A DNA stretch of 44,286 nt. It comes from Chlorobiaceae bacterium (GTDB taxonomy: Bacteria > Bacteroidota > Chlorobiia > Chlorobiales > Chlorobiaceae). Shown in pieces: positions 3,369 to 10,574 of the stretch. How positions within the stretch are numbered: the stretch's first letter is position 1; every line of letters starts with the position of its first letter. The stretch spans positions 1 to 44,286 of the forward strand of contig JAAXWL010000011.1 of the NCBI GenBank assembly GCA_013334975.1, given 5' to 3'. The notes below the pieces were generated by a model, which saw only the letters and a program-made list of their open reading frames with translations, did no database searches and was not told the DNA's origin. The position numbers and the translations under genes are program-made.

Positions 3369-4094
3369 CTACGGCTTCAGGATGTAATTACCGGCGAAAT
3401 CCATGACGCACATGGCTCCATAGACGGGATGCGTTCCGGTTTTTACACCTACGACATTGTAGATGCCGTTCAGCAGGTTTTTTCGATGGCCTCGAGATGG
3501 TACGCCATCGTCGATGAGCAGGGAGATGACGATCTCACTTGCCTCAACCGGCCCGTACGAGATGTTTTCGGCTGCTGACAGTTCCCATTGCCCGTAACGC
3601 TCAATTCTGGTTTGCACTGATGATCCGTCGCTTCCCGCATGACCGGTTTTTCCCGTGCTGGCCTGGTCATTGACCTGGTCGCGTGCAGCAAGGGTGAGCC
3701 CTTTTGAGGGGGACAGTGAAGAGGCCGGAGTGGAATTCAGCAGTTCACGGATACACTCATCAAGAGCGGAGACCCCTTCATTGGCGATGATGGTGATTTT
3801 TCCAGGCACTGTATAGGAATTGCCACGATAATATGCCGTTCGTGGTATCAGGTACTTTCTTGCATATCCGGCAGGGTCGGTTCTCATCCGGTTGATCTCC
3901 TTGACGACTTCAAAATCGGATGTGGTCATATAATCAGGTGTGGCGACAGGGTTTACGGATGATGAGTGTCGTGTTGACCAGGGAGCGGATGCATTATCAG
4001 CGGTAGCATGAAACGGAGCAGAAATCAGGAAGAGCAGAGCAAGAATGGTTGTTCTGCCTCTACGGATGCTGATCATGGGGGGGATTGAGTTCAT
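3369..4094 (-). CDS. Secreted CAP-domain (SCP/PR1, YkwD-like) protein
   Basis: 241 residues. A signal peptide (TTILALLFLISAPFHATA) precedes a CAP domain covering about residues 60-240. The family hallmarks are visible in order: EINRMRTDPAGYA, the first histidine in GHAGSDG, the AAENISYG glutamate, and the second histidine in SRGHRKNLL, followed by the NVVGVKTG and CVMDFAG strands. Bacterial CAP proteins of this kind are extracellular; their biochemical function is mostly unknown. It is transcribed towards the PEP-CTERM gene, 289 bases away, so two exported proteins lie next to each other on the minus strand. The first ATG is taken as the start; an internal ATG six codons later is also possible. 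Confidence 0.9.
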   Translation of the reverse strand: MNSIPPMISIRRGRTTILALLFLISAPFHATADNASAPWSTRHSSSVNPVATPDYMTTSDFEVVKEINRMRTDPAGYARKYLIPRTAYYRGNSYTVPGKITIIANEGVSALDECIRELLNSTPASSLSPSKGLTLAARDQVNDQASTGKTGHAGSDGSSVQTRIERYGQWELSAAENISYGPVEASEIVISLLIDDGVPSRGHRKNLLNGIYNVVGVKTGTHPVYGAMCVMDFAGNYILKP

Positions 4095-4555: not shown

Positions 4556-7500
4556 ATGAATTCAATTGCATTCATTGATACCGAAATTCATCCAAAGAGC
4601 AGAAAGATTCTTGATATTGGAAGTGTTAAGAGTGATGGAAGCATATTTCATAAGGCTTCTGTTGGTGATTTTATCCGTTTTCTCAATGGAATGCAATTCA
4701 TCTGCGGGCACAATGTTTTCAATCACGATATACAATACATTCGTGATGCACTTGATAGCGCAGGGGTAAATACTGCGAACATTATAGATACTCTGGTTCT
4801 TTCACCACTGCTTTTTCCGACCAAGCCATACCATGCTCTATTAAAAGACGACAAGCTGCAATCTGAAGAGCTTAACAACCCTTTGAACGATTCAATCAAA
4901 GCGAAAGATTTGTTCTATGATGAAATAGCTGCTTTTAATCAAACTGATGACACACTTAAAAAAATTTATTATTTGTTGTTGAGTGATAAAAAAGAGTTCA
5001 GTTCATTTTTTCGTTTTATTGGATATTCGAGCATTGATATTGATGTTGAAAAGTTGATTCGGAAGAGGTTTGAAAATGAACTATGTGAATATGCTGATCT
5101 GACAAGAATTATTTCAGAGTCACCAATTGAACTCGCGTACTGTTTATCCCTGATTCACTCTTTTATAAACCACAAGCTGACTCATTCCATCACCCCACCC
5201 TGGGTTCTGAAAAACTATCCGGATGTTGAGAGAATCATGTTTTTTTTGCGAAACAAGCCATGTATTACAGGCTGTGTGTATTGCAACAGCGCACTGGATA
5301 TTTATAAGGGTTTAAAAAGATTTTTTGGTTTTGATTCATTCAGGATACATGGAAATCAAAATTTTCAGGAAAAAGCGGTTAAAGCAGCGGTTGACAATAA
5401 ATCTTTGCTTGCGGTTTTTCCGACTGGCGGCGGAAAGTCAATTACTTTTCAGATTCCTGCTTTAATGAGTGGTGAAAGTGTGAGAGGTTTGACTGTTGTT
5501 ATTTCTCCCTTGCAGTCATTAATGAAAGACCAGGTGGATAACCTTGAAAAAAACGGAATCACTGAAGCGGTAACCATAAACGGTCTGCTCGATCCGATTG
5601 AGCGAGCCAAATCATTTGAGCGGGTTGAGGATGGTTCGGCATCAATCCTTTATATTTCACCTGAATCATTGCGTTCACGAACCATTGAGCGATTGATTCT
5701 TGGGAGAAAGATTGTTCGTTTTGTTATTGATGAAGCACACTGTTTTTCATCGTGGGGACAGGATTTCAGAGTTGACTATTTATATATCGGTGATTTTATC
5801 AAATCAATTCAGGAAAAGAAAAATATTGAAGATTCAATACCGGTGTCATGTTTTACGGCAACAGCCAAACAGAAAGTGATCGAGGATATATCTGAATACT
5901 TCAGGGAAAAGCTGTCGCTTGATCTTGAACTTTTTGTTTCGCCAACATCAAGAACAAATCTTCATTACAGGGTATATGAGAAAATTGATGAAAAAGAAAA
6001 ATATCTTGCGTTGAGAGATTTGATTGAAGTGAAACCTTGTCCAACAATCATTTATGTATCAAGAACAAAGAGGGCATATCAGCTTGCTGAAAAATTAAAA
6101 AATGATGGTTTTAGTGCAAAACCATATCATGGAAAGATGGACAAGAAAGAGAAGTCTGAAAATCAGGATACATTTATTAGTGGTGAAACCAGAATCATGG
6201 TTGCGACTTCTGCCTTCGGAATGGGGGTAGATAAAAAAGATGTCGGCATGGTTATTCATTATGATATTTCTGATTCACTTGAAAACTATATTCAGGAGGC
6301 AGGCAGGGCTGGAAGAGATGAAAATATAGATGCGGATTGTTTTGTGTTTTTTAATGAGGAAGACCTTGGTAATCATTTTATTCTTCTTAATCAAACCAAG
6401 TTGACAATAAAGGAAATTCAGCAGATTTGGAAAGCAATAAAAGATATTACAAAGTTACGTTTAACAGTATCAAAATCAGCTTTGGAGATTGCAAGGAAAG
6501 CTGGTTGGGATGACAATGTGTCGGATATTGAAACAAGAGTTAAAACAGCTATAGCGTCACTGGAAGCTGTCGGATATTTAAGAAGAGGACAAAACATGCC
6601 AAGGATTTTTGCTGACAGTATACTTTCCGGGAATATTAATGAGGCAATCGGCAAGATTCAATCATCAAACAGATTCGATGAGAAACAGAAGGAGAATGGA
6701 ATCAGAATTATCAAGAAGCTTTTTTCCAGTAAAAGCAGAGAGCAGTCAGTTGACGAATCGCCCGAATCGAGAGTCGATTATATTAGTGATCATTTAGGGA
6801 TTGTGAAGGATGAGGTGATCAATATTGTGAATCTTCTTCGTGAAGAGAAGATTCTGGCAGATACAAAAGATTTGCAAGCATTTATCAGGAAGGGTGGAAA
6901 CAAAAATCGTTCACTTGGTATACTTGATTCATTTATTACAATCGAGGACTCCTTATTGCGAAATATTGAAGAGCAAAAAGAAATATATCATTTCAAAGAA
7001 CTCAACGAACAGGCAGAAAAAGATGGTTGTAATGATGTCAGCATCAGCAAGATTAAAACCATCATCAACTATTGGGCAATAAAAAACCTGGTCAATCGAC
7101 ACTATTCATCGTATTCTAAGAATCATATAGCAATTCATTGCTTGTATCCTGAAGGTGTACTGAGAGAAAAAATGAGGTTAAGATATGCGTTGTCAAAGTT
7201 CATTGTTGAATTTCTTTATGAAAAAAGCAGATGTGAGTGTTTGGATGATGATGCAGGAAAAGAAGAGGTGTTGGTCGATTTTTCGGTGCTTGAATTAAAA
7301 TCAGTCTATGAGAACTCTTCGGAACTATTCAAGTTAAAAATCAGTGTTGATGATGTAGAAGAGACACTCTTTTATCTCTCAAGAATTGATGCAATAAAAA
7401 TAGAGGGAGGTTTTCTTGTTACATATAACCCGTTGACTATTGAGCGACTTGAACAGAATAGTAAAAAAAGTTATACAAAAGATGATTATCAGAAGCTGAA

Positions 7501-9382
7501 TCAGTTCTATGAAAACAAGGTTCAGCAAATTCATATAGTGGGTGAGTACGCAAAGAAGATGATCAGTAACTACAACGAGGCGTTGCGGTTTGTTGATGAT
7601 TATTTTCAGTTGAAATATTTATTATTTCTGAGAAAGTATTTTCCCGGAAGTAAATCCGATGATCTCAGGCTGAAAATGACCCCCGCTAAATTCAGGCAGC
7701 TTTTTGGAGAACTGTCGTTGAACCAATTGAAAATAATTAACGATAATGAATCAAAAAACATTGTAGTTGCTGCTGGACCGGGAAGCGGAAAAACAAGAGT
7801 TCTTGTTCATAAACTTGCATCATTGCTTCTGATGGAAGATGTAAAGCATGAACAGTTACTCATGCTTACCTTTTCAAGAGCTGCTGCAACAGAGTTTAAA
7901 AAACGATTGATAAGGCTTATTGGTAATGCAGCGCATTACGTAGAGATAAAAACATATCATTCTTTCTGTTTTGATTTGTTGGGTAGGGTTGGTGATCTGG
8001 AAAATGCAGATGTCATTATAAAAAAGACTATTGAAAAAATAAAAAACAACGAGGTTGAAGTAAACAGAATCACAAAAACTGTTTTAGTGATTGATGAGGC
8101 ACAGGATATGGATGAAGATGAGTTTACTCTGATAATTACCCTGATGGAAAAGAACGAAGATATGAGAGTGATAGCGGTTGGGGATGATGATCAGAATATT
8201 TATGAATTCAGAGGTTCAAGTTCAAAATATCTTGAACATTTTATCACGGTCAACAAAGCAACAAAATATGAATTGATCGAGAATTACAGGAGTAAACGAA
8301 ATCTTGTTGATTACACTAACCAGTTTGTGAGCAGGATTCAGCACCGCTTAAAAAGCACACCGATAATTCCTAAGCTACTCGACACCGGAACGATAAGAAT
8401 GATTCGGTATAACAGTAACAATCTCATTGCACCGCTTGTGCAAGACGTACTGAACACAGAGCAAAATGGAACCACCGGTATTCTTGCAAAAACGAATGAC
8501 GAGGCGCTTCAAATTACCGGACTGCTTCTGAAAAACAGTATCCCGACAAAGTTGATACAGGCAAATGAAGGATTCAATATGTATAATCTTGCTGAAATCA
8601 GATTCTTTTTAAGCCAGTTAAATATGGAAGCTGATGTCTTTATAATCAGCGATGATGTCTGGGTAAACGCAAAACGGGAACTGTCACACAGATTCCATAC
8701 AAGCTCGATGTTGGAAATGTGCAAAAAAGTCATAAGAGATTTCGAAGAGACTAATCCGAGGAAATATAAAACTGATTTCGAGTATTATATCCGTGAATCC
8801 CGAATGGAAAATTTTTTTAACGAGAACGGAGATACAGTTTTGGTCTCTACCATTCATAAAACAAAAGGCAAGGAGTTTGATAATGTTTATCTTATGCTCG
8901 AGAATTTCAATACTTCGACAGATTCAGCAAATCGTTTATTGTATGTAGCAATGACCAGGGCTAAAAAGAATTTGATTATTCATATTAATTCAAATATTCT
9001 TGACAATCTTTCAACAAAGAATATGGTTCAGGTTGTGGATAGACAAAATTATTTACCTCCATCTGAAATCCTGATTCACCTGACATACAAAGATGTCTGG
9101 CTTGACTATTTTATATCAAAACAATGTTTGGTTGATGAGTATGTAAGTGGCGACGAATTGAATCTGAAAGGATATGAATGTTTAAATTCAAGAGGGCAGA
9201 TTGTATTGAAATTCTCTCAACAGTTTTTAAGGAAAATAGAACGTCTGGAAGCTGATAATTATGTATTGAAATGTGCGAAAGTAAATTTCATTCTTTATTG
9301 GCTTAAAGAGGGGTCGGAAAAAGAGATAAAAATTATTTTACCAGAATTATGCTTTGAAAAGCAGTATCATAATGCTCAATAA
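4556..9382 (+). CDS. Exonuclease-RecQ-UvrD triple-domain helicase fusion
   Basis: About 1608 residues from ATG 4556 (a TTG two codons upstream at 4550 is the alternative; a stop lies directly before it; numbering below counts from that TTG). Residues 1-125: DEDD-type 3'-5' exonuclease fold, with FIDTE at 8-12, GHNVFNHD at 53-60 and NDSIKAKDLF at 113-122. Residues 238-245 hold Cys-x3-Cys-x2-Cys, possibly metal binding. Residues 270-620: RecQ-type superfamily 2 helicase with PTGGGKS (291-297), DEAH (394-397), TATAK (436-440) and QEAGRAGRD (582-590). Residues about 1050-1480: UvrD/Rep superfamily 1 helicase with AGPGSGKT (near 1075), DEAQD, GDDDQNIYEFRG, STIHKTKGKEFD and LLYVAMTRAK. All catalytic motifs look intact. 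Base composition is clearly more AT-rich than neighbouring genes, suggesting transfer. Likely role: DNA repair or defence against foreign DNA; this is inference. Confidence 0.9.
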   Translation: MNSIAFIDTEIHPKSRKILDIGSVKSDGSIFHKASVGDFIRFLNGMQFICGHNVFNHDIQYIRDALDSAGVNTANIIDTLVLSPLLFPTKPYHALLKDDKLQSEELNNPLNDSIKAKDLFYDEIAAFNQTDDTLKKIYYLLLSDKKEFSSFFRFIGYSSIDIDVEKLIRKRFENELCEYADLTRIISESPIELAYCLSLIHSFINHKLTHSITPPWVLKNYPDVERIMFFLRNKPCITGCVYCNSALDIYKGLKRFFGFDSFRIHGNQNFQEKAVKAAVDNKSLLAVFPTGGGKSITFQIPALMSGESVRGLTVVISPLQSLMKDQVDNLEKNGITEAVTINGLLDPIERAKSFERVEDGSASILYISPESLRSRTIERLILGRKIVRFVIDEAHCFSSWGQDFRVDYLYIGDFIKSIQEKKNIEDSIPVSCFTATAKQKVIEDISEYFREKLSLDLELFVSPTSRTNLHYRVYEKIDEKEKYLALRDLIEVKPCPTIIYVSRTKRAYQLAEKLKNDGFSAKPYHGKMDKKEKSENQDTFISGETRIMVATSAFGMGVDKKDVGMVIHYDISDSLENYIQEAGRAGRDENIDADCFVFFNEEDLGNHFILLNQTKLTIKEIQQIWKAIKDITKLRLTVSKSALEIARKAGWDDNVSDIETRVKTAIASLEAVGYLRRGQNMPRIFADSILSGNINEAIGKIQSSNRFDEKQKENGIRIIKKLFSSKSREQSVDESPESRVDYISDHLGIVKDEVINIVNLLREEKILADTKDLQAFIRKGGNKNRSLGILDSFITIEDSLLRNIEEQKEIYHFKELNEQAEKDGCNDVSISKIKTIINYWAIKNLVNRHYSSYSKNHIAIHCLYPEGVLREKMRLRYALSKFIVEFLYEKSRCECLDDDAGKEEVLVDFSVLELKSVYENSSELFKLKISVDDVEETLFYLSRIDAIKIEGGFLVTYNPLTIERLEQNSKKSYTKDDYQKLNQFYENKVQQIHIVGEYAKKMISNYNEALRFVDDYFQLKYLLFLRKYFPGSKSDDLRLKMTPAKFRQLFGELSLNQLKIINDNESKNIVVAAGPGSGKTRVLVHKLASLLLMEDVKHEQLLMLTFSRAAATEFKKRLIRLIGNAAHYVEIKTYHSFCFDLLGRVGDLENADVIIKKTIEKIKNNEVEVNRITKTVLVIDEAQDMDEDEFTLIITLMEKNEDMRVIAVGDDDQNIYEFRGSSSKYLEHFITVNKATKYELIENYRSKRNLVDYTNQFVSRIQHRLKSTPIIPKLLDTGTIRMIRYNSNNLIAPLVQDVLNTEQNGTTGILAKTNDEALQITGLLLKNSIPTKLIQANEGFNMYNLAEIRFFLSQLNMEADVFIISDDVWVNAKRELSHRFHTSSMLEMCKKVIRDFEETNPRKYKTDFEYYIRESRMENFFNENGDTVLVSTIHKTKGKEFDNVYLMLENFNTSTDSANRLLYVAMTRAKKNLIIHINSNILDNLSTKNMVQVVDRQNYLPPSEILIHLTYKDVWLDYFISKQCLVDEYVSGDELNLKGYECLNSRGQIVLKFSQQFLRKIERLEADNYVLKCAKVNFILYWLKEGSEKEIKIILPELCFEKQYHNAQ

Positions 9383-10112
9383 TTCTCTATTTATTAAAAA
9401 ATGACGATAGGGAAATGCGGATAGTAACAGTTCCGGTAAATTTTCTTTTATTCATTCGGGTTTGATTGTAAATTCCTGATTACTGCTTTTTTTGTTAGGA
9501 TTATATTTACTAATTAATACATTTATTGATGTGCTTTGTCGTGAGTGAATGAAAGAATACATTGAAAACTGATGGAGGAGGAATCAACGGGTACTCGATA
9601 TTAATCCGCTTAAGCGTGGAGCGTGATTCGATGGTTGTGAGCCGGTCGTTACACGGGACACAGTACTCTTATGTTGACCATGTTGATTGCTTCAGTGATG
9701 GTTATACCTGTGGGGTATTTTTCTGAAACATGATGAGAGTTTTTAAGAGTAGTTTTGATGACGCTTTCTGTTTCGGGATGTTAGAGGATAAAGGTGACTC
9801 AAGAGGGTGCATACATGGCATGGTGAATGTCCAGCAAGGGAATACCACAATCCTTTGGCCGCCGGAAACGACGTTGTCCATTGGCGGAGGGGTGCAACCT
9901 GAGGCGATACAGTGTGGTACGTTGTAAAAAAACATGAATCATCGGTATATAGTCGCGGGCTTCTATGTATAAAACGAAGCATGATGTCTTTGGCGCGCTG
10001 CAGTATGGCTCGATTTTCCCGGAACGCTTGCAGGGTGGAGTGGGACAGAGTACCTTTTATGATGAACGATGTCCCTGCAAGATATTATGAACCCTTTTCA
10101 ATCCAGCTGACC
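9383..10112. other. 730-base stretch without a recognisable gene
   Basis: The first 150 bases are as AT-rich as the helicase gene; base composition then returns towards the genome norm. Overlapping open frames exist on both strands at 9702-9982, but none shows a credible ribosome-binding site, motif or hydrophobic pattern, and I do not call them. A GGAGGAGGAA purine run at 9571-9582 is not followed by a start codon at usable distance. It could be the decayed right flank of the transferred segment. Confidence 0.45.
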
Positions 10113-10574
10113 ATGCCACTCATGAAATTTATCAAAGAACTGAAAAAAAGTTTTCTGCTGCATCCGGTGGCAGCTCATTTCAGCAATGGGTTGGTGCCGG
10201 TGGCTTTTCTCTCTCATCTGATTTTCCTGCTGACGGGTAATTCCTGTTTTGACTATGCCGTTATTTATTTACTGCTCATCGTGCTGATGGCGGTGCCGGT
10301 CTCTTTTTTTTCCGGTATTCGTGAGTGGAAGAGTAAATACAAGGGTGTTAAGGCTCCTGTGTTCAAAAAAAAGATCAGGTTGTCGATGCTTCTGATGGCT
10401 TTGGGTGTGACCACAGTTACGATACGGGTTGTGGCGCCTGACGTGATGCAGCGTGGCGACTTTCTTTCATGGGTGTATGGTGCGGCGCTCATTGTCATGT
10501 TTCCTGTCGTTGTGCTTCTCGGTCATCACGGAGGACAGCTCTCGGCAGGTCAACGTTCCGAAAGGTTTCGCTGA
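10113..10574 (+). CDS. DUF2231-like inner-membrane protein
   Basis: 153 residues from ATG 10113 (another in-frame ATG lies at 10122; the frame is open further upstream but that part is not protein-like). The start LHPVAAHFSNGLVPVAFLSH matches the LHPxxxHFPxxL opening of DUF2231 membrane proteins, whose conserved histidines have been suggested to bind haem. Four hydrophobic segments are visible (about residues 17-40, 45-65, 85-105, 120-140), and the end VVVLLGHHGGQL matches the family's C-terminal GxxGG(K/Q)L signature. The stop codon overlaps the next gene's ATG by one base, so the two are probably translated together. Function unknown. Confidence 0.7.
   Translation: MPLMKFIKELKKSFLLHPVAAHFSNGLVPVAFLSHLIFLLTGNSCFDYAVIYLLLIVLMAVPVSFFSGIREWKSKYKGVKAPVFKKKIRLSMLLMALGVTTVTIRVVAPDVMQRGDFLSWVYGAALIVMFPVVVLLGHHGGQLSAGQRSERFR

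Follow-up and report, generated by a model that had tools for sequence, protein, structure and literature searches.

An exonuclease–RecQ–UvrD fusion gene at a defence insertion hotspot in a green sulphur bacterium: a candidate single-protein nuclease–helicase

The window analysed here, a 44,286-nucleotide stretch of DNA from a Chlorobiaceae bacterium, encodes a single polypeptide in which a DnaQ-like exonuclease domain is joined to a RecQ-family SF2 helicase and a UvrD/Rep-type SF1A helicase (Table 1). We interpret this protein as a mobile, stand-alone nuclease–helicase that would unwind and degrade foreign DNA in the 3'→5' direction on its own, a reading to which we assign a probability of roughly 0.58. 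The features on which it builds are the architecture, the conserved catalytic residues, purifying selection, horizontal spread, the absence of any operon partner, and a chromosomal junction shared with CRISPR and toxin–antitoxin loci. From these we infer the enzymatic activities, their polarity, the substrate, the rule separating self from non-self, and the defence function itself.

Table 1. Positions of the fusion gene, its modules and the flanking genes in the window
Feature	Position	Strand	Remarks
Exo–RecQ–UvrD fusion gene	4556..9382	+	intact, 1608 aa; dN/dS 0.106 vs L012
DnaQ-like DEDD exonuclease domain, residues 1–135	4556..4960	+	D8, E10, D58, D112 kept; Asn107 at the DEDDh His position
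Helical linker, four-Cys site C177, C236, C240, C243 (C-x58-C-x3-C-x2-C)	4961..5305	+	all four in 71/73 members
RecQ-family SF2 helicase core, residues 253–620	5312..6415	+	TIGR00614, Pfam, Foldseek of AF2 model (RECQL5/RecQ)
Middle region, residues 621–1050, structured, without Pfam family	6416..7705	+	AF2 pLDDT ~60–93 per 10-residue block; conserved in the family
UvrD/Rep-type SF1A helicase, residues 1051–1480, full motif set	7706..8995	+	Pfam, motif conservation, Foldseek of AF2 model (UvrD/PcrA/Rep)
C-terminal region, residues 1481–1608, fastest evolving	8996..9379	+	49–54% identity to nearest relatives
DUF2231 gene, right-hand edge of the insertion hotspot	9912..10574	+	DNA homology to relatives begins near 10108
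CAP-domain gene, left edge	3369..4094	-	~25 kb from DUF2231 in G008, G016; ~46 kb in G024

Modules of the fusion protein

The first-pass annotation had described one chain of about 1.6 kresidues containing an exonuclease, a cysteine segment, RecQ and UvrD, and the intact reading frame and the order of domains uphold this description. The frame (4550/4556–9382) is uninterrupted over 1608–1610 codons, and ATG 4556 is the likely start because the N-termini of homologues read MNSIAFIDTE. Searches of plasmids, of genome contigs from GTDB and of IMG/VR provided 72 further near-full-length relatives, giving an alignment of 73 sequences with the window copy. Every module is under purifying selection, with dN/dS of 0.03–0.3 in seven computable pairs, the values for distant pairs resting on saturated dS. 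AlphaFold2 models covered residues 1–690 (mean pLDDT 85.4) and 600–1608 (pLDDT 85.8).

Both helicases proposed from the sequence proved complete. The Pfam domains DEAD and Helicase_C (residues 270–587) and UvrD-helicase/UvrD_C (PF00580/PF13361; residues 1056–1479) scored far over their cut-offs, and the RecQ Walker A and DEAH motifs, together with the UvrD Walker A, DExQ and motifs III–VI, are near-invariant in the 73-sequence alignment. The RecQ part belongs to the RecQ family (TIGR00614, 275.4 bits vs a cut-off of 219.8), with the SF2 core motifs 0–VI near-invariant, and stays below the equivalog model for RecQ proper (TIGR01389, 315.8 bits vs 640). Furthermore, no Pfam match at E<=1 was found in the protein for the RQC, HRDC or RecQ zinc-binding domains. 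The UvrD part, with its Pfam pair and complete SF1 motifs, falls within the UvrD/Rep group of SF1A. None of the equivalog models for RecQ, UvrD, Rep, PcrA or RecB reached its cut-off with the fusion protein.

A Pfam search of the protein returned no match for the exonuclease, PF00929 being absent, and in a Foldseek search with the N-terminal model the RecQ core dominated, with no separate exonuclease match among the matches listed. DnaQ/PolC profiles were matched weakly (E 0.003–0.01) by a profile built from nine relatives. An hhalign comparison of the full family profile with DnaQ-type proteins of related genomes gave a probability of 91% (E 1e-6) and placed the acidic residues of motifs I and III in register; the AlphaFold2 model arranges strands and helices in RNase-H-like order. 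D8, E10 and D58 are without exception wherever sequence is present in the alignment, and D112 is missing solely in L103. These observations support the DEDD-type exonuclease assigned earlier. The domain does not qualify as a DEDDh exonuclease (D-E-D-D plus His in HxAxxD), as the acidic residues are present and the His position holds Asn in 68 of the 73 members. Exonuclease activity is thus plausible but unproven, since the usual DEDDh His is absent.

More distant cousins were also found. Cyanobacterial and Deinococcus plasmid proteins share the exo–RecQ–UvrD order and the Asn-type motif and lack the Cys site. On plasmids of Rhodobacter sp. CZR27 and Hymenobacter, the exonuclease is of the canonical DEDDh kind and comes with a cold-shock-like domain, and RecQ and UvrD are encoded together with it or next to it in adjacent genes (cousin systems of this type lie at L234:3105-10506, L235:1278-9435 and L228:2525-10152). 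Because the three modules stay adjacent even where they are split into separate genes, we argue that they work as one unit. The Asn substitution could also mean that the exonuclease has lost its catalysis, or works in a much changed way, and acts as a sensor of DNA ends or a clamp, so that the protein would chiefly be a dual helicase, in keeping with either a defence or a maintenance role. The Asn itself and the further loss of the last Asp in L103 speak for this reading, but the near-invariance of the four acidic residues, the strong purifying selection on the domain and the canonical HxAxxD motif of the split cousins speak against it, and we regard it as unlikely. The homologue L103:9950-14872, from a viral contig, has lost both Asn107 and Asp112 and is a possible natural nuclease-dead variant.

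Between the exonuclease and the RecQ core, a Cys-x3-Cys-x2-Cys segment had been noted. The segment is real, but its cysteines number four rather than three, as C177 is co-conserved with the others. The site was lost jointly in two Campylobacterota members (L009 and L046), where a single nearby Cys is left. It is a putative metal-binding site, a candidate for Fe–S or zinc. We discarded the idea that CxxxCxxC marks a radical-SAM protein: the spacing varies between x3 and x4, a distant fourth Cys is conserved along with the others, and Pfam gave no radical-SAM match.

Foreign origin and the insertion junction

The gene is AT-rich, as the first reading had it, with a GC content of 0.36 and a GC3 of 0.34 vs 0.608 ± 0.060 in 25 further window ORFs. 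Among the genomes surveyed, 2 of 61 in the host family and 10 of 198 in the phylum carry it, and the second family copy (G032, 74%) sits at a different locus. In a quickly built tree, in which a long branch joins the Campylobacterota, the window copy and this single family relative are nested within Bacteroidota, and a Flammeovirgaceae protein is 75% identical. The horizontal transfer suggested earlier is thus supported by the aberrant GC3, the sporadic distribution and the nesting. Helicases of these families have repair roles, and the gene could in principle be a housekeeping repair gene of Chlorobi. A universal, vertically inherited gene is contradicted by the sporadic distribution and the different locus in G032, and the base composition is foreign. 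Moreover, housekeeping is already covered: the host, which its FMO protein marks as a green sulphur bacterium, possesses RecQ-size and UvrD-size helicases of its own and, elsewhere in its genome, a RecB that scores over cut-off. We consider a housekeeping role highly improbable.

Mobile carriers of the gene were found. Eight plasmid records among 72,556 hold it at a coverage of at least 80%, and 3 of the 12 IMG/VR contigs that bear it also encode a phage portal. The INPHARED phage genome collection contained no full-length copy, and neither flanking direct repeats nor a tRNA att site was found.

Directly to the right of the fusion gene lies a conserved block (DUF2231, GNAT, LysE etc.), which in relatives comes after a UbiA prenyltransferase gene. 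The junction between UbiA and DUF2231 is empty and 60–75 bp long in five relatives (G008, G014, G016, G004 and G040). In G024 (L185–L186) and G032 (L203) it is occupied by type III-A CRISPR–Cas genes including RT–Cas1, and in G002 (L188) by a Cas10/Csm2/Csm3 locus, counted as type III-A. In G038, a TacA1-type antitoxin gene and a GNAT gene, a toxin–antitoxin pair, stand beside DUF2231. We regard this junction of the genus as a hotspot for the insertion of defence loci in green sulphur bacteria.

In the genome studied here (G000), DUF2231 is the direct neighbour of the fusion gene on the window contig. The UbiA gene is found on another contig, C1, where a match to the BPTD_3080 restriction endonuclease family, a DUF4062-type gene and then the contig end come after it. 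The genes on the UbiA side and the fusion gene would form one island, as we infer across an assembly gap; the island is not contiguous in the assembly because the left side of the hotspot is split between contigs. The endonuclease and DUF4062-type genes (L204:10442-14477) probably make up the left portion of this island. Compared with G008, G016 and G024, the left flank has been rearranged in this genome, as the distances between the CAP and DUF2231 genes indicate (Table 1).

Genomic neighbourhoods and known helicase–nucleases

All-against-all clustering of 1107 neighbour proteins of the homologues identified no recurring operon partner at a fixed offset, the largest cluster comprising 11 loci at scattered offsets. 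As no partner recurs, the fusion protein probably acts alone. PADLOC models matched 185 families in 117 neighbours and 132 in 101 others (218 neighbours in total), compared with 8 families for a control set of 77 genes around ordinary recQ, a crude measure of enrichment since redundant models inflate the counts, the control genomes are unmatched, and ±5 genes are set against ±3. A type I restriction–modification system lies directly downstream of the chromosomal copy in Desertivirga and another near the plasmid copy on pALVIN01; a type I-D CRISPR system lies near a plasmid copy, and type IV restriction enzymes are among the neighbours. The defence role proposed in the first-pass annotation thus draws support from the CRISPR and toxin–antitoxin genes at the junction in relatives and from these matches, which are evidence of context; the activity is predicted.

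Other neighbouring genes were recorded as well. On a conjugative plasmid of Scytonema (L230:1234-9200), helicase-like, hypothetical and phospholipase D genes just upstream of a homologue form a predicted set reminiscent of DISARM. Large uncharacterised gene pairs lie near homologues at L036:3893-8364 and L106:12052-18094, and the first gene of the latter pair has no PADLOC match.

Many homologue neighbourhoods consist of ordinary metabolic genes, and several plasmid copies stand beside par/rep genes, as expected of a plasmid-maintenance enzyme; both facts tell against defence, as does the Asn in the DEDD site, which could mean weak or altered nuclease activity. The main rival account is that plasmids and prophages carry the protein, pictured as a WRN-like exo-RecQ plus UvrD, as a repair, recombination or replication-restart enzyme for their own maintenance, with chromosomal copies arising only by integration. 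Repair and replication are the classic roles of RecQ and UvrD helicases, and the account would fit the portal-bearing phage contigs and the copies beside ParA/ParB and replication initiators (Aliarcobacter pACIB, Deinococcus p96k, and a Bacteroides plasmid with SSB and ParA nearby). It agrees less well with the many chromosomal copies in unrelated contexts, with the rarity of the gene even among plasmids and with the defence-type junction and neighbours. We hold this account to be the less probable one, though it remains the foremost competitor of the defence reading.

In WRN the exonuclease is of the DEDDy kind, RQC and HRDC domains are present, and there is no UvrD part. Like WRN, whose helicase is among the PDB sequence matches, the fusion protein combines an N-terminal DEDD 3'→5' exonuclease and a RecQ core in a single chain. 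Unlike WRN, it has a DnaQ-like domain with Asn, a four-Cys site, no RQC or HRDC match and an added UvrD part, and it is thus not a WRN orthologue (DEDDy, RecQ, RQC and HRDC). With AdnAB, RecBCD and AddAB it shares a UvrD-type SF1 motor coupled to a nuclease, and the UvrD part matches these structurally. It differs in its DEDD rather than PD-(D/E)XK nuclease (no such Pfam domain was found in the protein, which places it outside these groups), its SF2 RecQ second motor, its single chain and the lack of a RecD-like 5'→3' motor. Helicases of the RecQ and UvrD families move along DNA in the 3'→5' direction, which is also the direction of degradation by DnaQ-type exonucleases. Since the two motors share this polarity, they do not make a bipolar RecB/RecD-type pair. 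The RecBCD-like character claimed earlier therefore stands as to a nuclease with motors and not as to bipolarity; by analogy, the protein appears closer to WRN, with its exonuclease and RecQ, coupled to a motor like that of AdnAB than to RecBCD.

The protein also matches the GajB profile and structure of Gabija (GajAB), another UvrD-like helicase with a nuclease, but no GajA (OLD/TOPRIM) partner was seen with it, and it adds RecQ and DEDD modules. With CAP and DUF2231 genes as immediate neighbours in the window and no recurring partner in relatives, it is not a Gabija system. DinG-like proteins (B. subtilis DinG; CasDinG) join a DEDD exonuclease to an SF2 helicase (PMC12525004, PMC11981726); their helicase is of XPD type rather than RecQ and comes without an SF1 helicase. 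Bad/DNA2-type helicase–nucleases carry a four-Cys site within the chain (PMC7430649), but with a RecB-type iron-staple nuclease, a 5'→3' SF1 motor and a Cys spacing different from ours. The best PADLOC matches, the RecQ-like helicases DpdF and PsyrT, cover the RecQ core only (residues ~250–635) and lack the architecture of exonuclease plus UvrD. PADLOC-DB 2.0 has no full-length model for this architecture, its best matches being single helicase domains, and searches of NCBIfam and the literature found neither it nor a RecQ–UvrD fusion described. Thus, within the databases and papers searched, the family is undescribed so far; by its make-up it belongs with the helicase–nucleases.

Predicted mechanism and significance

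Given the 3'→5' polarities of the three families, the chain would start from a 3' end or a junction, separate the duplex and digest the 3' strand. Specifically, the RecQ core would engage a 3' overhang, a fork or a single-strand–double-strand junction, and the two motors, RecQ and UvrD, presumably both moving 3'→5', would open the duplex. The N-terminal DEDD exonuclease would digest the exposed 3' strand behind the motors, and the four-Cys metal site may brace it onto the helicase. Host DNA would be spared because its ends and forks are occupied by RecBCD, RecA and SSB, as has been proposed for Gabija, where RecBCD occupancy is suggested to protect DNA (PMC12407980). In its most specific form, the defence reading pictures a single-protein immune system not described before, in which an Asn-substituted DEDD 3'→5' exonuclease, a metal-site clamp and SF2 and SF1A motors are combined in one chain and which plasmids and prophages have carried across several phyla; for this form we see an even chance.

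Helicase–nuclease machines such as RecBCD and Gabija determine which DNA survives in a cell. Database entries name the family members 'RecQ family ATP-dependent DNA helicase', a label under which a widespread family hides a candidate one-gene defence. With an SF2 motor, an SF1 motor and an exonuclease in a single chain, point mutants of one gene would make it possible to study how motors of different superfamilies share the work and how such a machine spares self DNA.
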